From Thiomicrorhabdus sp. (GTDB lineage: Bacteria; Pseudomonadota; Gammaproteobacteria; Thiomicrospirales; Thiomicrospiraceae), in contig JALSJT010000204.1 of NCBI GenBank assembly GCA_026989175.1, positions 1 through 37,670 of the forward strand: DNA of 37,670 bases, written 5' to 3'. The notes below the pieces were generated by a model. That model did not search any database. It was not told where the DNA came from and worked only from the letters and a program-made list of their open reading frames with translations. Below, in pieces: positions 659-37,442 of the stretch. Made by a program: the position numbers and the translations under genes. Each line of letters opens with the position of its first letter. The stretch's first letter is position 1.

Positions 659-928
659 TTAAGCATCATCATATTCGGGTGAGGGGGCGATATTTTAACG
701 GAAAGCGTTGAATTCTTAAATGTTTCTAGTGAATAAAATAGGGGGGGAGAAAATTTTAGCGCACTTTTTTCAAGGTGGCTTGGGTGATCTTGTACCGAGA
801 AAGGGGGCTAAATTTCGCCTATTAATCTTGAAAATTTAGTAAAATATCTGGCTATTATAATTATATCGTTACTCCACTCAAATAATGATATGTCATGCCT
901 AACCTTCCTCAAGTAAAAGAGATCTTTC
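659..928. other. Divergent intergenic region metH / argS
   Basis: These 270 bases hold the promoters of two divergent genes. A TATAAT hexamer at 856-861 is a plausible minus-10 box for argS, with only a weak minus-35 candidate (around 835-840). A G7 tract in the form TAGGGGGGGAGAAAATTTTA lies at 739-758 and matches a motif recurring elsewhere in this window. I see no riboswitch or small ORF. Confidence 0.5.
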
Positions 929-2692
929 ATGAAGCAGAAAATTGCGCAAATATTAGCCGATGTTGTTCAACAGTTAAAAGAGCAGAGGGTGATTCCTGAA
1001 TCGCTGAACCCGAGAGTGAATGTTGAAAATACACGAGATAAAGCGCATGGTGATTTTGCGACCAATTTGGCGATGATGCTCACCAAAGCGGCGGGTATGC
1101 CGCCAAGAGCGTTGGCTGAAAAAATTGTTGCGTTGGTGGCCGATGAGGCGGTGATTGAAAAGGTTGAGATTGCGGGACCGGGATTTATTAACTTTTTTGT
1201 CAATGACTCCGCTAAATTTGCAGTGGTTAAAACAGTGCTGAGTCAGCAAGGTGATTTTGGTCAATGCAATGTGGGGCAAGGGCGTTCAGTATTGGTAGAG
1301 TTTGTTTCGGCAAATCCAACGGGGCCTTTGCATGTAGGGCATGGTCGAGGTGCGGCTTATGGAGCCAGTGTTGCGAACTTATTAGCCGTGGCAGGATTTA
1401 AGGTCTCTCGTGAGTACTATGTGAATGATGCTGGGCGTCAGATGGATATTTTGGCGACCTCTGTTTGGTTGCGTTATTTATCGTTGTGTGGCGAAACGTT
1501 TGTTTTTCCAAGCAACGGCTATAAAGGCGACTATATCTATGCGATCAGTGAGTCTTTGAAAACTCAGTTTGGTGAGACCTTAAAACGAACCGCTTTAGAG
1601 GTGTTTGCGGGAGTGACGCCTGATGAAGGGTGTGAAGAGGGGGATAAAGAAAAACATATTGATGGTCTGATCGTTAAAGCAAAAAACCTGTTGGGTGCCA
1701 CGCATTACGAGGAAGTCTTTAGTGCCGCAGTAAACAGTATTTTATCGGATATTAAAGAAGATTTAGCTGGGTTTGGTGTGACATTTGAAGAGTGGTTTTC
1801 AGAGCGCGCTTTAATGGAAACGGGCGTGATTGATGCGGCGATTGAAAAGTTGCAAGCGGCCGATAAAATTTATGAAAAAGGTGGCGCACTTTGGTTCCGA
1901 TCGACCGATTATGGCGATGAAAAAGATCGTGTTGTGGTGCGTGAAAATGGCTTAAAAACCTACTTTGCCTCAGACATCGCCTATCACTTCAATAAGTTAG
2001 AGCGCGGCTTTGATCTGTTAATTGATATTTGGGGTTCCGATCATCATGGCTACGTACCACGGGTCAAAGCGGCGATGCAGGCAATGGATACCAACCCTGA
2101 TGCACTCGAGGTATTGTTGGTGCAGTTCGCTATTCTGTATAAGGGGGGGGAGAAATTAGCGATGTCAACGCGAAGTGGTCAGTTTGTGACGTTGCGTGAG
2201 TTGCGTGATGAAGTTGGACGGGATGCCGCGCGTTTCTTCTATGTGCAACGGAAATCAGAACAGCACATGGATTTTGACTTGGATTTAGCGGTCTCTAAAT
2301 CCAATGAAAACCCAGTCTATTATATTCAGTATGCCCATGCGCGAATTTGTCGTGTACTGGTGCAGTCGGAAGAGAAAGGCTATGTCTTTGATGCTGAAGT
2401 AGGATTGGCTTCGTTGGGTCTTCTTGAGAGTGAGCAAGAGGTACACATTGCCACGGAATTGGCAAAATACCCAGAGATTGTGGCACGTGCCGCTTTGGTT
2501 TATGAGCCACATCAGATCGCCTATTATTTAAAAGATTTAGCACACGCACTGCATGCTTATTACAATGCGAGCCAGTTTATTGTGGAAGATGATGCCTTGC
2601 GTCAAGCACGCTTAACGCTGATCTCTTCGGTGCAACAAGTGCTCAAAAATGGCTTGGCAATTTTAGGTGTGTCTGCGCCAGAGAAGATGTAA
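929..2692 (+). CDS. argS: Arginyl-tRNA synthetase
   Basis: Class I aminoacyl-tRNA synthetase that charges tRNA-Arg with arginine in the cytosol. At 587 residues it has the usual length. The N-terminal tRNA-recognition domain contains GDFATNLAMML near residue 45. The HIGH signature appears as HVGHGRGA near residue 135, and the KMSKS-type loop reads AMSTRSG near residue 410. A DALR-type anticodon-binding domain follows, with YAHARICRV near its start. The ATG at 929 follows an AAAAGAG ribosome-binding site at 915-921. The next gene begins at the base after the stop codon, so the two are almost certainly cotranscribed and translationally coupled. The G8 run at 2143-2150 encodes the Gly-Gly just before the KMSKS loop. 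Confidence 0.97.
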   Translation: MKQKIAQILADVVQQLKEQRVIPESLNPRVNVENTRDKAHGDFATNLAMMLTKAAGMPPRALAEKIVALVADEAVIEKVEIAGPGFINFFVNDSAKFAVVKTVLSQQGDFGQCNVGQGRSVLVEFVSANPTGPLHVGHGRGAAYGASVANLLAVAGFKVSREYYVNDAGRQMDILATSVWLRYLSLCGETFVFPSNGYKGDYIYAISESLKTQFGETLKRTALEVFAGVTPDEGCEEGDKEKHIDGLIVKAKNLLGATHYEEVFSAAVNSILSDIKEDLAGFGVTFEEWFSERALMETGVIDAAIEKLQAADKIYEKGGALWFRSTDYGDEKDRVVVRENGLKTYFASDIAYHFNKLERGFDLLIDIWGSDHHGYVPRVKAAMQAMDTNPDALEVLLVQFAILYKGGEKLAMSTRSGQFVTLRELRDEVGRDAARFFYVQRKSEQHMDFDLDLAVSKSNENPVYYIQYAHARICRVLVQSEEKGYVFDAEVGLASLGLLESEQEVHIATELAKYPEIVARAALVYEPHQIAYYLKDLAHALHAYYNASQFIVEDDALRQARLTLISSVQQVLKNGLAILGVSAPEKM

Positions 2693-3365: not shown

Positions 3366-4421
3366 TTACTTGCTACTCTCTGGGGGAATTTGTGTTTCAT
3401 CAATCACACAGTTTCGACCGCTGTTTTTGGCTTGATAGAGTGCTTTGTCTGTACGCTCAATAAAGGACTTTGCATCTTCATAGTCTCCTCGGTAGGTCGC
3501 GACACCAAATGAGGCGGTAATGGTTTTAAGTGGCTCGGATGAGTTTTTCCGTTTTAAGTGGGCGGACTGAATCGCCTCTCTAATTTGATGCGCACGTTCG
3601 ACGGCTTCGTCTAAACTGGAGTTTGCGAGTAAAATAGCAAATTCTTCCCCCCCATAGCGACAGATGGTTTCATTGTCCGTTTTGTCTTTTTGCATAATAC
3701 TGGCAAAGTAACGCAGTACACTGTCACCGACCAAATGACCATAGGTGTCATTGAATAACTTAAAGTGATCAATATCACAAAGAATCATCGCGAGGCTTTC
3801 AGGGGCATTTTCCGCTTCCAGCATGAGCTCTTCAATGGCATTATTAAACGCTTTTCGATTGCCTATTTGGGTTAGTTCATCTTTTAAGGCTTCCGCTTGT
3901 GCTTCTTGTAACTGTTTACGAAGCTCTTTCACCGCTTCAGCATTGTGAATCATCTCATTCTGAATATTGAGAGAGCCCTCTTTAATTGAAGAGGCGGCGC
4001 TGATTACGGAGTCTGTGATGCGTTTAATATCTTCACTGTTTAAGTCTGGATTGGAGAGTTCACTGGAGCACTCATCAAGCTGCTGGGTGTGACTTTCTAA
4101 TTTGTCACTCCATGCATTCATTTTTTTGACCATCGCATCAATTAAGCGTCGAAAGGCTCGGTCAAACTCAGAAGTGCTATCTTCTTTTTCTGCTAGGTAG
4201 GTGTCATAAAGTCGTTTACCAACTCGATCATTGTAGCCAAAAGGGTCATTTAAAATTGCATCCATCTCTTGGCGTAGGGCAGGGATGTTCCCTTTAACAT
4301 ATTGATACCAAACATAGTAATTTAGCGGGCTGGGGTTGATGTTTTGCTCTTTAAAGGTCTCAACGAGCCTGTCAAAAATACGAATGGCTTTTTGGGGGGC
4401 ATCTTTTACATCAACGATCAT
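3366..4421 (-). CDS. Soluble GGDEF diguanylate cyclase
   Basis: Synthesises the second messenger c-di-GMP from GTP. The C-terminal GGDEF domain carries DELTQIGNRKAF, DIDHFKLFNDTYGH and the active-site loop RYGGEEF, all intact. The inhibitory I-site RxxD, expected five residues before the loop, reads T-D-N-E, so product inhibition through it is unlikely. The N-terminal ~180 residues are a predominantly helical, cytosolic sensory region (YYVWYQYVKGNIPAL) leading into a coiled coil; I do not recognise the ligand. No membrane helix or signal peptide is present. I chose the ATG at 4419-4421 (MIVDVKDAPQKA); the frame stays open to 4655 but that extension overlaps ubiK and is low-complexity. The gene is convergent with the SPOR gene and divergent from ubiK. 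Confidence 0.9.
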   Translation of the reverse strand: MIVDVKDAPQKAIRIFDRLVETFKEQNINPSPLNYYVWYQYVKGNIPALRQEMDAILNDPFGYNDRVGKRLYDTYLAEKEDSTSEFDRAFRRLIDAMVKKMNAWSDKLESHTQQLDECSSELSNPDLNSEDIKRITDSVISAASSIKEGSLNIQNEMIHNAEAVKELRKQLQEAQAEALKDELTQIGNRKAFNNAIEELMLEAENAPESLAMILCDIDHFKLFNDTYGHLVGDSVLRYFASIMQKDKTDNETICRYGGEEFAILLANSSLDEAVERAHQIREAIQSAHLKRKNSSEPLKTITASFGVATYRGDYEDAKSFIERTDKALYQAKNSGRNCVIDETQIPPESSK

Positions 4422-4637
4422 AATGAGTTTAGACCTTTTTTTGAACAGAGAAAATTTCTGAGTGTGTTCGACAATTCTAACATGAATAAAATAGGGATAG
4501 TTAATGTTGAAAACAGCTCTATTTAAAAAAGGGGTAAGGGGTCTATGTTTCTTTATTTCGAGTGGTATAAATAAGGAGAACAGAGTATAGTTTGGCGATA
4601 GAAAAAAGATGTTAAACAATCGATATAGGAGTAGAAA

Positions 4638-4874
4638 ATGCTGAATGCAAGTCAATTAGACGAGATGGCGAGAAAGATAGCGGGCGTGATTCCACAAGGG
4701 GTGGGTGGGATTCCTTCCGAGGTTCAAGCACAAGTTAAAGTCATTTTAGCACGCACATTTGAAAAAATGGATCTAGTGAGTCGAGAGGAGTTTGATATTC
4801 AGGTTGCGGTGTTGGCGAAAACACGACAAAAGCTTGAAAAACTTGAGAAGACGGTGGCAGATCTTGAAAAATAA
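4638..4874 (+). CDS. ubiK: Ubiquinone biosynthesis accessory factor UbiK (BMFP family)
   Basis: A 78-residue protein matching the BMFP/YqiC family in length and layout: an N-terminal amphipathic part (MLNASQLDEMARKIAGVIP), the conserved stretch RTFEKMDLVSREEFDIQ around residues 46-62, and a C-terminal coiled coil (LAKTRQKLEKLEKTVADLEK). In E. coli, UbiK partners UbiJ in the soluble Ubi complex for aerobic ubiquinone synthesis and associates with membranes. A TAGGAG ribosome-binding site precedes the ATG. It sits 9 bp upstream of comM, the usual gammaproteobacterial pairing (yqiC-yifB), and is probably cotranscribed with it. Confidence 0.9.
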   Translation: MLNASQLDEMARKIAGVIPQGVGGIPSEVQAQVKVILARTFEKMDLVSREEFDIQVAVLAKTRQKLEKLEKTVADLEK

Positions 4875-16656: not shown

Positions 16657-17031
16657 AAACGGCTCTAAGGTTTTTAAATAGATGTTTTTTCTGAAGGTTT
16701 TTACTTTTTTTATTTTATAGAGACCTTTGCACGAGGGGGACGCGAGAGAAAAAAGAGCTAAAATTTGACTGATTGAGGCGGGAATCGTAGGGAATAGCTA
16801 GCTATTCGCAAGATTTTCAACAAAAATCAGGCATATTTTTTAGCCTTTTTTATCCGTGTATTCTCTCGTGCAAAGGTCTCTTATAATTTTATAATAATTT
16901 AGGTAAAAGACTGTTTTAGCCTATTTTAATGGACATAATCATACACGTTTTTTTATTTTTGGTAAGGAATACTACTCAATTTATTTAGATAAAGTTGATT
17001 TTCGAGTTATATTTTTTACTTTTTAATGGAA
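16657..17031. other. Intergenic region upstream of the Lap-like cluster
   Basis: This 375-bp stretch separates the alcohol dehydrogenase from the OmpA/TSP3 gene, both leftward. It holds the palindromic MITE-like element (16720-16880); the remainder is very AT-rich. Any promoter for the cluster must lie in the 63 bp between gene and element, inside the element, or to its right. I found no convincing minus-10/minus-35 pair and no ORF. Confidence 0.5.
16720..16880. mobile_element. 161-bp MITE-like palindromic element with perfect 16-bp terminal inverted repeats
   Basis: The left end GAGACCTTTGCACGAG (16720-16735) and right end CTCGTGCAAAGGTCTC (16865-16880) are exact reverse complements. The similarity continues inward imperfectly for about 30 more bases (a shared AGCTAAAA/TTTTTAGC-type segment and GACTGATT/AATCAGGC). 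A 16-base perfect palindrome, GAATAGCTAGCTATTC, sits at the centre (16792-16807). TTATA occurs directly on both sides (16715-16719 and 16881-16885), consistent with a target-site duplication. There is no coding capacity. The ends resemble those I associate with IS5-family insertion sequences, so this is probably a non-autonomous derivative; the family assignment is inference. Confidence 0.75.
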
Positions 17032-20395: not shown

Positions 20396-20977
20396 GTGGC
20401 CACAATTGACGAACTTAAAAAAGATTTACAGATTCAAACCGAATTAATGGGTGCTTCCCTTATCTTTGCGACCACGTGGGGCGTGTTTAGTCCACGTGAA
20501 ATTGATTCGGGTACCGAGCTGTTCTTAAAGTATTTAGCTATTGAAGAGGATGAAGTGGCATTGGATATCGGCTGTGGCTATGGCCCACTGGGTTTAGCGA
20601 TTGCAGCTAATGCGCCAAAGGGTGAAGTTCACATGGTTGATAAAGATTTTGTTGCTGTTGATTATGCCAATAAAAATGCACAAAAAAATGGGTTATCCCA
20701 TGCGAAAGCGTACCTTTCAAATGGACTGAGTGCAGTCCCCAAAGACATTCAATTTTCAACGGTGGTGTCGAATATACCCGCCAAAGTGGGCAAAGAGATG
20801 TTGAGCATTATGCTGCATGACGTACATCGTCAATTGAAACCGGGCGGGCAGTTTGTGGTGGTGACCATTAATGGCTTGCGTCAATATATGAAACGTAATT
20901 TTATTGAGGTGTTTGGCAATTACGAGAAAGTTAAGCAAGGAAAAGACTACACCATCTCGAGAGCCATAAAAGAGTGA
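20396..20977 (+). CDS. Methyltransferase small-domain (MTS) protein, RsmC/YbxB-like
   Basis: A 193-residue class I SAM-dependent methyltransferase. Motif I (LDIGCGYGPLGLAIA, near residue 60) binds SAM and motif II is MVDKDFVAVDYA. The motif IV position reads SNIPAKVGKE, where RNA guanine-N2 methyltransferases of the RsmC/RsmD group usually carry NPPF/Y, and is closer to the N-x-P form of single-domain YbxB-like proteins. The N-terminal half-domain of RsmC is absent. An rRNA or other nucleic-acid target is likely but unproven. The start is GTG at 20396-20398, with AGGGA about 10 bases upstream; a later ATG at MGASLIFATTWG is possible. A poly-G palindrome starts a few bases after its stop. Confidence 0.8.
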   Translation: MATIDELKKDLQIQTELMGASLIFATTWGVFSPREIDSGTELFLKYLAIEEDEVALDIGCGYGPLGLAIAANAPKGEVHMVDKDFVAVDYANKNAQKNGLSHAKAYLSNGLSAVPKDIQFSTVVSNIPAKVGKEMLSIMLHDVHRQLKPGGQFVVVTINGLRQYMKRNFIEVFGNYEKVKQGKDYTISRAIKE

Positions 20978-20978
20978 A

Positions 20979-21040
20979 TATGACATAGGGGGGGGAGAAA
21001 TTTTCGTAATTAAATTTTCTCCCCCCCCCCCATGTCATTA
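20979..21040. repeat. Poly-G/poly-C palindrome
   Basis: The left arm TGACATAG8AGAAATTTT (20981-21004) and right arm AAATTTTCTC11ATGTCA (21013-21037) are near-perfect reverse complements around a short AT-rich centre. G8 is at 20988-20995 and C11 at 21021-21031. It can fold into one very stable hairpin. It starts only a few bases after the methyltransferase stop codon, but no T-tract follows the stem, so a standard Rho-independent terminator is not clear. Half-copies of the same motif occur elsewhere in the window. Confidence 0.8.
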
Positions 21041-21087
21041 TTGTTTTTGATCTAAAAAAGGTACAATGCCTTAACTTTAATTAAATT

Positions 21088-22056
21088 ATGTATTTGGAGC
21101 GTATTGTGTTCAGTATTTTTAAACCGTCTTTTGCCCTGTTTTTAGTGGTGTTTTTTAGTTTGTTTACGATCTCGCAAGCGGCAGATGCCAAGCGTTTTGG
21201 TGGTGGAAAAAGTTTTGGTTATTCTAAATCTGTGCCCCCTAAATCCTTTGATAAATCGTCTTCTAAGCAACAAGCCGCGCCAAAAGCGGCACCTGCTACC
21301 GCAGCGGGTGCGGGTGCAAAATCTCGTTCAGGCATGATGGGTATTTTAGGTGGTCTAGCGGCGGGTGGTCTATTGGCCGCGATGTTTATGGGCGATGGCT
21401 TTGAAGGGATTCAAATTATGGATATTCTGCTGTTTGCGTTACTCGCGTTTGTTTTGTTTAAACTCTTTAGACATTTTGCAGGGCGTTCAAGGTCTGAAAA
21501 TACGCCACAGCCTGCGTATCAAGCCAGCCACGAGCCTGAGGGAAATCTTCAAACGACACCTCAACCACAGAACATTGCTTCACGTGAAACGGCGCAAGAA
21601 TATAACCCAAAATCTGGCGAATCCATTTTTGGTTCTAATCTAGGCGGTTCGGTCAGTGAAGAGGCGGTGCATGTTAGTGAAGCGCCTGCTTGGTTTAATG
21701 CCGAACAATTTGTAGAAGGCGCAAAGGGCCACTTTATTACGCTGCAAAAAGCGTGGGACAGTGCCGATTTATCCGAGGTAGAATCTTATTGTTCACCTGA
21801 ACTGTTTGCTGCCATTAAGCAAGAGATGCAAGGGCAACAAGCGGGCGAGCATCAGACGGTGGTGGATACACTGGATGCTGAAATTGCCGATATGGCGGTT
21901 GATGGAGAGTACTTTGTGGTTAGCATTCGTTTCAGTGGCTTTATTGAAGAAGACGCTTCAGAAGGTGCTCATGCCTTTAATGAAGTTTGGCATATCCGTC
22001 GTTTAGCAAATGATGAAGGCACATGGGAAGTGGCTGGAATTCAACAAAAGAGCTAG
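21088..22056 (+). CDS. Tim44-like domain membrane protein
   Basis: A 322-residue protein with a hydrophobic N-terminal signal or anchor (FALFLVVFFSLFTISQAADA), a low-complexity Gly/Ser/Lys/Ala stretch to about residue 75, a hydrophobic region at about 80-128 (GILGGLAAGGLLAAMFMGDG and ILLFALLAFVLFKLF), a polar linker, and a C-terminal Tim44-like domain at about 205-320 (WFNAEQFVEGAKGHFITLQK, AWDSADLSEVESYCSPELFA). Bacterial Tim44-like proteins are common in proteobacteria, and their function is poorly defined. Either the ATG at 21088 or the in-frame GTG at 21106 could be the start; the GTG has TTGGAG just upstream and would place the signal peptide nearer the N-terminus. Confidence 0.85.
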   Translation: MYLERIVFSIFKPSFALFLVVFFSLFTISQAADAKRFGGGKSFGYSKSVPPKSFDKSSSKQQAAPKAAPATAAGAGAKSRSGMMGILGGLAAGGLLAAMFMGDGFEGIQIMDILLFALLAFVLFKLFRHFAGRSRSENTPQPAYQASHEPEGNLQTTPQPQNIASRETAQEYNPKSGESIFGSNLGGSVSEEAVHVSEAPAWFNAEQFVEGAKGHFITLQKAWDSADLSEVESYCSPELFAAIKQEMQGQQAGEHQTVVDTLDAEIADMAVDGEYFVVSIRFSGFIEEDASEGAHAFNEVWHIRRLANDEGTWEVAGIQQKS

Positions 22057-29884: not shown

Positions 29885-30487
29885 ATGAATTGTTTTAAAA
29901 AAATTCCCCCCCCCTGTTTCTCCAGCCTGTCAGTGGTGATTTTAGCGGGCGGGCAGGGTAAGCGCATGGGAGCTCGTCAAAAAGCGTTGCTTCCTTATCA
30001 AGGAAAGCCACTGTTAAGTTGGGTGATTCAGGGACTCGCAGAGAAACAACTTCCGGTTTTATTGAATGTTAATTCGCAGGACTCTGCTTATCAATCGTAT
30101 GATTTACCGCAGTTTTCAGACCAGTATCAAGGATTTTTAGGACCGCTTGCGGGAATGCAGGCCGCTTGGGACAATGTTGCATCGGATTGGATTGTCTTTG
30201 TTCCCTGTGATAACCCAAGTTTACCGAACCATTTAATTGAACGACTATTGCAAAGCTATTTCATACATCCTGCGCCATTGGTGGCGGTTCATGATGGAAA
30301 AAGAGTACAGCCACTATACTTATTAATGCATCGTAGCATGAAGCCTGCATTAGAGAGGGCACTTGAGCAGTCCCATCTAAGTGTTTCACGCTGGATTCAG
30401 GAGAACTCGCATGTGCTGGCGGATTTTTCAGATCAACCACAATTTTTTCAAAATATAAACACGATAAACACGCTTGAATCGTCTTAA
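29885..30487 (+). CDS. mobA: Molybdenum cofactor guanylyltransferase MobA
   Basis: Transfers GMP from GTP to molybdopterin to form the bis-MGD cofactor for enzymes such as formate dehydrogenase and nitrate or DMSO reductases. The 200-residue protein has VILAGGQGKRMGARQKALLP (nucleotide-binding loop plus the conserved Lys), FVPCDNPSLP (metal-binding Asp) and GPLAGMQAAW. The usual N-terminus starts only a few residues before the LAGG motif; here the annotated start adds about 16 residues (MNCFKKIPPPCF) encoded by an A-run and a C9 tract at 29906-29914. A GTG near 29934, just before VILAGG, is a possible alternative start. It lies 18 bp after the kinase gene. No other molybdenum genes are visible. 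Confidence 0.88.
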   Translation: MNCFKKIPPPCFSSLSVVILAGGQGKRMGARQKALLPYQGKPLLSWVIQGLAEKQLPVLLNVNSQDSAYQSYDLPQFSDQYQGFLGPLAGMQAAWDNVASDWIVFVPCDNPSLPNHLIERLLQSYFIHPAPLVAVHDGKRVQPLYLLMHRSMKPALERALEQSHLSVSRWIQENSHVLADFSDQPQFFQNINTINTLESS

Positions 30488-31667: not shown

Positions 31668-31705
31668 GGGAGAAAAATTATGTGTGAAAAAAATTTCCCC
31701 CCCTC
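31665..31705. repeat. Poly-G/poly-C palindrome over the exonuclease stop and hisI start
   Basis: TAGGGGAGAAAAATT (31665-31679) is followed 11 bases later by AAAAATTT-type sequence and C7 (31697-31703), an imperfect version of the 20979-21040 palindrome. It supplies the exonuclease TAG stop, a GGGGAG Shine-Dalgarno 7-8 bases before the hisI ATG, and the first codons of hisI. Confidence 0.6.
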
Positions 31706-35070: not shown

Positions 35071-35085
35071 ATAGTCAAATTAAAT

Positions 35086-35151
35086 TTGGGGTCAGAGTAA
35101 GGTTAGCAGACTGCTTGGAAGGGTATCAAAGGGTTTTTACTCTGACCCCAG
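35086..35151. repeat. GGGGTCAGAGTAA-bounded palindromic repeat, copy 1
   Basis: GGGGTCAGAGTAA (35088-35100) and its exact reverse complement TTACTCTGACCCC (35137-35149) bound a 62-bp segment. The ends are identical to those of the copy at 37366-37433, while the 36-base interior differs and pairs poorly. No ORF is present. It lies between the cbpA terminator and the TRAP gene. Confidence 0.85.
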
Positions 35152-35224
35152 TATTTGAATGTATGATGAATAGTCTCTACTTTATGGTAAAGTATGCGGT
35201 AACAATGATTAAGGAAGATAGAAT

Positions 35225-37346: not shown

Positions 37347-37357
37347 TAGGGGGGGGA
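37347..37357 (+). repeat. G8 tract immediately after the ldhA stop
   Basis: TAGGGGGGGGA directly follows the ldhA TAA and continues as GAAAAA, matching the poly-G motif seen at 739, 20987 and 31665. It sits nine bases before the second GGGGTCAGAGTAA palindrome. Confidence 0.6.
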
Positions 37358-37365
37358 GAAAAACT

Positions 37366-37433
37366 GGGGTCAGAGTAAGATAAGGCCATGCTTTTCTAAC
37401 AGAACAAGCATGGCTTTATCTTACTCTGACCCC
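37366..37433. repeat. GGGGTCAGAGTAA-bounded palindrome, copy 2 (28-bp arms)
   Basis: The left arm 37366-37393 and right arm 37406-37433 are reverse complements at 27 of 28 positions, around a 12-base loop. The arms begin GGGGTCAGAGTAAGATAA, and the outer 13 bases equal those of copy 1. It forms a very stable hairpin between the convergent ldhA and the next gene and is followed by TTGTTTTTTTTA, so it may also act as a terminator. Confidence 0.88.
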
Positions 37434-37442
37434 TTGTTTTTT

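Follow-up and report, generated by a model that had tools for sequence, protein, structure and literature searches.

The G8/C11 palindrome at positions 20981–21037 of the window (the whole stretch of DNA analysed, 37,670 nucleotides long) is made up of two copies, placed head to head, of a short motif that recurs throughout the genome, and has no class of its own. The motif, with the consensus A-G(7-9)-A-R-A-A-A-W-T-T-T, is almost certainly a real, maintained and clade-specific feature, carried by 6 of the 32 Thiomicrorhabdus genomes. By analogy with the uptake sequences DUS of Neisseriaceae and USS of Pasteurellaceae, its most likely role, which we put forward tentatively and short of calling it probable, is that of a signal for preferred uptake in natural transformation.

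The G8 tract (20988–20995), the C11 tract (21021–21031), and the flanks TGACAT (20981–20986) and ATGTCA (21032–21037) were all confirmed in the window sequence. The palindrome and its surroundings comprise the following features.

20396–20977, plus strand: gene for an MTS (methyltransferase small-domain) protein, its stop codon just 5' of the palindrome
20981–21037, no strand assigned: palindrome, an inverted pair of the G-run motif, TGACAT - A G8 AGAAATTTT - loop - AAATTTTCT C11 - ATGTCA (from sequence, fold, and counterparts in L071 and L072)
20987–21004, plus strand: motif copy 1, A G8 AGAAATTTT (from sequence)
21010–21031, minus strand: motif copy 2, G11 AGAAAATTTAA (from sequence)
21038–21049, plus strand: T-rich stretch TTATTGTTTTTG directly 3' of the stem, a possible terminator tail of the upstream gene (sequence, read in its context)
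21088–22056, plus strand: downstream gene for a Tim44-like domain protein, in the same direction, starting 50 bases 3' of the palindrome

The RNA fold of 20976–21045 has an energy of −34.6 kcal/mol, compared with a mean of −17.6 for shuffled sequences (z = −5.8), and none of 200 shuffles folded as well. A reading of the window made earlier from its letters (the sequence-only reading) was thus right to describe a very stable palindrome with a shared flank; the unknown class in which it placed the palindrome gives way to the inverted pair of a dispersed motif. Its remark that the hairpin lacks a T-tract holds in that no pure T-tract follows the arm, but the stem runs straight into the T-rich TTATTGTTTTTG. 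No RNA family was detected by an Rfam search of the window, and an automatic terminator scan did not call the palindrome. Counterparts of the palindrome occupy the same place in L071, where T7 follows (C7T7), and in L072; the corresponding site contains an unrelated hairpin in L073 and half of the motif in L074. With a motif-pair hairpin in three of the five species compared, the position seems to require a hairpin, a role that the motif pair appears to fill in those three.

Because a stable GC hairpin lies just after the stop codon and is followed by a T-rich stretch, the window hairpin may act as the transcription terminator of the upstream gene, and the C7T7 in L071 is consistent with such a role. 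It is quite improbable, however, that the motif as a whole is explained in this way, with the palindromes being ordinary rho-independent terminators and the single copies their remnants: although a T-rich side is present in 7 of 25 and 2 of 8 pairs, ~85% of the motif copies are single, and ~63% of the runs lie within genes, many of them conserved in frame.

When G runs of at least seven were aligned, A preceded the run in ~80%, and A, G/A, A, A, A, A/T, T, T, and T followed it, the AT-richness on the 3' side ending ~10 bases on. The unit is degenerate and ~17 bp long. The TAG taken by the sequence-only reading as the start of the unit is merely the commonest left end, the A before and the A after the G run being more constant. 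Its count of at least five TAG(n) units in 37 kb is likewise sensitive to how the ends are drawn: TAG5+..AGAAA occurs three times (0.05 expected), and relaxing the ends yields five G≥7-AGAA copies, at 741, 2143, 20988, 21021 (minus strand), and 37349. The copies and variants outside the palindrome are listed below.

739–757, plus strand: motif copy TA G7 AGAAAATTTT, upstream of argS
2142–2159, plus strand: motif copy A G8 AGAAATTA, in frame inside argS (Tyr-Lys-Gly-Gly-Glu-Lys-Leu)
3641–3653, minus strand: variant copy G7 AAGAAT, inside the open reading frame 3366–4655
29898–29914, minus strand: variant copy G9 AATTTTTT
31688–31703, minus strand: variant copy G7 AAATTTTTT, at the start of the phosphoribosyl-AMP cyclohydrolase gene
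37347–37362, plus strand: motif copy TA G8 AGAAAA, immediately 3' of the stop codon of a 2-hydroxyacid dehydrogenase gene

Two other repeats were observed in the window. A second dispersed palindromic repeat, GGGGTCAGAGTAAG / CTTACTCTGACCCC, lies at 35077–35156 and 37359–37440, the latter copy directly after a G8 motif copy, an arrangement also found after the motif copy at L046:1338. A perfect inverted 17-mer, AGAGACCTTTGCACGAG, at 16719–16735 and 16865–16881 is among the most over-represented words of the window genome and not of G045, the genome of a second species. Among over-represented words there are also the palindromic GAATACCTAGGTATTC in the window genome and CCCTAATCCCCAGATAGAAA in G045.

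Of the window genome (G000; 1.98 Mb), 820 kb was read directly in a sample leaning towards motif-bearing contigs, and the whole-genome figures are counts of TAG5+..AGAAA, of the 13-mer GGGGGGGAGAAAA, and of a core-plus-AT-tail pattern. The genome-wide count called for by the sequence-only reading gave 65 occurrences of TAG5+..AGAAA, compared with 2 of the reversed pattern. Scored against an order-4 Markov model, the 11-mers most in excess in the window-genome sample are GGGGGGGAGAA and GGGGGGAGAAA, and GGGGGGGAGAA ranks first in the sister genome too; an undescribed dispersed repeat family, as had been suggested, is therefore apt as a description, but the copies do not resemble transposed repeats. 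Runs of at least seven G or C number 295 per 703 kb in G045 (25–32 expected from the Markov model) and 223 per 685 kb in the window genome (24–25 expected; the sample leans to motif-bearing contigs), approximately tenfold above expectation in the clade, whereas Thiomicrorhabdus chilensis has 5 per 400 kb (3–10 expected), equivalent to background. The density of G runs amounts to ~320–420 per Mb, and their length distribution has a second peak at 7–8, which is absent from poly-A runs.

The nearest related loci of the window are from Thiomicrorhabdus, and the boundary of the motif falls inside this genus. The window genome contains 105 copies of the exact 13-mer GGGGGGGAGAAAA, five others have 43–106 each, and 26 further genomes of the genus have none; the looser core-plus-AT-tail pattern gives 191–422 copies per clade genome, compared with 1–25 outside. 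In a one-locus gene tree, the five placeable members (the window genome and four that correspond, in size and in identical motif counts and places, to the metagenome assemblies D96SM.bin.15, S012_112, S013_67, and S012_68) are monophyletic with support of 99/99. A longer 17-mer had no copies in 368 other gammaproteobacterial genomes, among them a non-clade Thiomicrorhabdus and two further genera of the same family, and no exact 17-mer was present in the viral contigs searched. No paper on the motif was found in a literature search confined to open-licence papers.

That the runs are a poly-G artefact of assembly or sequencing is the least credible of the explanations considered. The named clade members are metagenome assemblies, and several motif copies sit within ~130 bases of contig ends in G000 (C3:7036, C63:10029, C118:112, C159:115, and C183:48), where the assembly may have been interrupted by the runs or hairpins. 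Assemblies of at least two naming styles nevertheless have the motif in common, along with its flanks and orthologous sites, and other metagenome assemblies of the family are devoid of the motif.

The position of the runs relative to genes, which the sequence-only reading had proposed to record, shows an approximately fourfold enrichment between genes, ~37% of the runs lying in the 9% of the DNA that is intergenic; sites are found on both strands. Close inverted pairs in G045 are mostly head-in (24 versus 6 head-out, p = 0.0014), and those in the window genome show no such excess (8 versus 9). The spacing of runs follows a Poisson distribution, with neither domain structure nor evenness beyond random. 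A polar motif of the Chi or KOPS type was considered and rejected, the strong replichore orientation expected of it being absent; the G-rich strand carries 66% of all runs, no more than base skew would give. In G045 we also noted a 100–140 bp repeat flanking small genes in a cassette-array-like layout (L216:13573–15630, and also L239, L217, and L219). Several copies of this repeat carry a poly-G hairpin, single copies occur elsewhere in the same genome, and some of the flanked genes look, from their open reading frames, like toxin–antitoxin pairs.

It is conceivable, if rather unlikely, that a chromosomal protein (a nucleoid organiser, a repair or segregation factor, or a global regulator), acquired or changed by this clade, binds the motif, with selection keeping the sites. 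The intergenic enrichment, the weak strand bias with GC skew (56/72 and 61/87), and the conservation of sites between species described below point in this direction. Against it stand the explanation of the strand bias by base skew without Chi- or KOPS-like polarity, and the Poisson spacing without domain structure; a regulator, moreover, is ill-suited to sites deep in housekeeping genes on both strands.

Conservation of the sites was assessed between the window genome and G045, which are 79% identical in aligned DNA. Of the G runs at least seven long, 37 of 66 and 38 of 52 (64%) have a counterpart of six or more in the other genome, whereas runs of exactly five or six G are kept in only ~20%, a figure calculated from these counts, and A runs of at least eight in ~34%. 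Of the synonymous glycine GGG codons within long runs, 44 of 66 and 38 of 49 (67–78%) are kept, compared with 41% and 40% outside runs (p = 8e-5 and 3e-7). Since these GGG positions are synonymous, whatever constrains or drives them acts at the level of DNA or RNA, and not of protein. We set aside as evidence the choice of GAG over GAA following the run (p = 0.019 and 0.002), since G000 also favours GGG-GAG where no long run is present. The host genes are largely housekeeping genes, with homologues of argS, murD, holB, kdtA, mutL, fliI, cheA, rnfC, and dus among them; their frames are open, and orthologous coding runs keep frame when aligned. Frameshifts in the homologues of argS, murD, holB, kdtA, mutL, cheA, and fliI should be harmful.

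Length variants of single loci were also found. Two contig ends carry assemblies of a single locus, with G11 in one and G10 in the other (C3:7036 and C118:112), and two nearly identical copies have G6 and G7 (C37:219 and C134:14734), these being assembled lengths in which sequencing error is possible. Slippage at the G runs, which had been proposed from the unequal tracts of the palindrome, is accordingly likely as judged from such variants, but alone it leaves the fixed flanks and the conservation unexplained. For this reason we regard it as unlikely that biased mutation suffices, with G runs, once formed, expanding by slippage and persisting without selection or drive. The second run-length peak at 7–8 and the length variants are what it would produce; the lack of such a peak in poly-A runs, the A before and ARAAAWTTT after the run, run conservation across species well above that of short G runs, and the frame-keeping lengths of aligned coding runs are not, and the conservation at synonymous sites weakens it further. 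Loss of MutS was rejected as a cause, MutS being found in 32 of 32 genomes, and its presence also weakens the case for biased mutation.

G7–G11 is the classic slippage-prone tract, and the runs resemble the poly-G contingency tracts of Campylobacter, Helicobacter, and Neisseria in varying in length, also between assembled copies. That they are phase-variable tracts switching genes on and off is nonetheless very improbable: the motif has many more copies and fixed AT-rich flanks, its sites are mostly in housekeeping genes or intergenic, and the open frames are kept between orthologues. Contingency loci switching surface or restriction genes were rejected on the same grounds of housekeeping hosts and retained frame. 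With REP and MITE repeats the motif shares its dispersal and the palindromic form of some copies; it differs in having no element ends, in its ~17 bp unit, and in showing interspecies substitutions in conserved genes, and a mobile repeat was rejected since orthologous coding sites show substitutions and not insertions. The G-run unit seems instead to evolve in place, because it is ~17 bp long and degenerate, lies in frame in conserved genes, and is kept at synonymous sites. Altogether, maintenance across the clade, between species, and at synonymous sites speaks against a repeat spread by transposition, against phase-variable genes, and against an artefact of sequencing.

The reading we favour, an uptake signal, would account for the motif as follows. 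A sequence-specific process acting on DNA would hold it in the genomes: a surface receptor would give preference to fragments with the G run and its AT-rich, easily opened tail, and motif copies arising by mutation would be spread and repaired through recombination. Facing pairs after genes would have been reused as hairpin terminators, the window palindrome probably among them. The likeness to DUS and USS lies in a combination of features by which those systems are described (PMC12616744, PMC3630211, PMC2346458): copies by the hundred, restriction to one clade, a tail rich in AT, sites that are maintained and tolerated in reading frames, and inverted pairs at gene ends, which here are in excess only in the sister genome. 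Here, too, copies number in the hundreds (191–422 of core plus tail per genome) and exceed Markov expectation, the restriction to 6 of 32 genomes follows phylogeny (five members placed, one locus), and copies in both coding and intergenic DNA and on both strands are tolerated in frames; the G-run density is within the 200–500 per Mb of the Apl-type USS (PMC12616744).

Like the USS, the motif joins a short GC core to AT-rich DNA, occurs by the hundred on both strands in and between genes, is specific to a clade, and forms inverted pairs able to serve as terminators; unlike the USS, with cores AAGTGCGGT or ACAAGCGGT, its core is a G homopolymer of variable length, a single AT tail of ~10 bp comes directly after the core, and the host family is Piscirickettsiaceae. 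It resembles the DUS in being clade-restricted, over-represented, kept in permissive coding and intergenic positions, and present in inverted pairs, and differs in its unrelated sequence and fewer copies; in contrast to both systems, it is known from sequence alone. A homopolymer core of variable length would be unusual for an uptake signal, and the copy number is at the low end for DUS and USS. HIP1 of cyanobacteria offers a further parallel as a highly iterated short word of unclear benefit in one lineage, but is an 8-bp palindrome with far more copies than the G-run motif.

As for the competence machinery, ComEC was found in five of the six clade genomes (not in G045, which is 79% complete), DprA and a PilQ-like secretin in all six, with secretin matches below the curated cut-off, and ComEA in three; a FimT/GspH-type pilin was not found in any of the six. 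This machinery is also present in motif-less relatives, and therefore does not discriminate.

The uptake-sequence systems described in the cited papers are two, DUS and USS (PMC12616744, PMC3630211, PMC2346458). It is possible, in a suggestion resting on analogy and made with some reserve, that Thiomicrorhabdus has a third, independently evolved family of uptake signals, built of a homopolymer core (G8) and an AT-rich tail. If so, the sharp boundary inside the genus would make it possible to study how such a system is born, by comparing sister species that have it with those that lack it. Should the motif be no uptake signal, hundreds of slippage-prone G8 runs, some of them kept in housekeeping genes across genomes 79% identical, would still need a reason.
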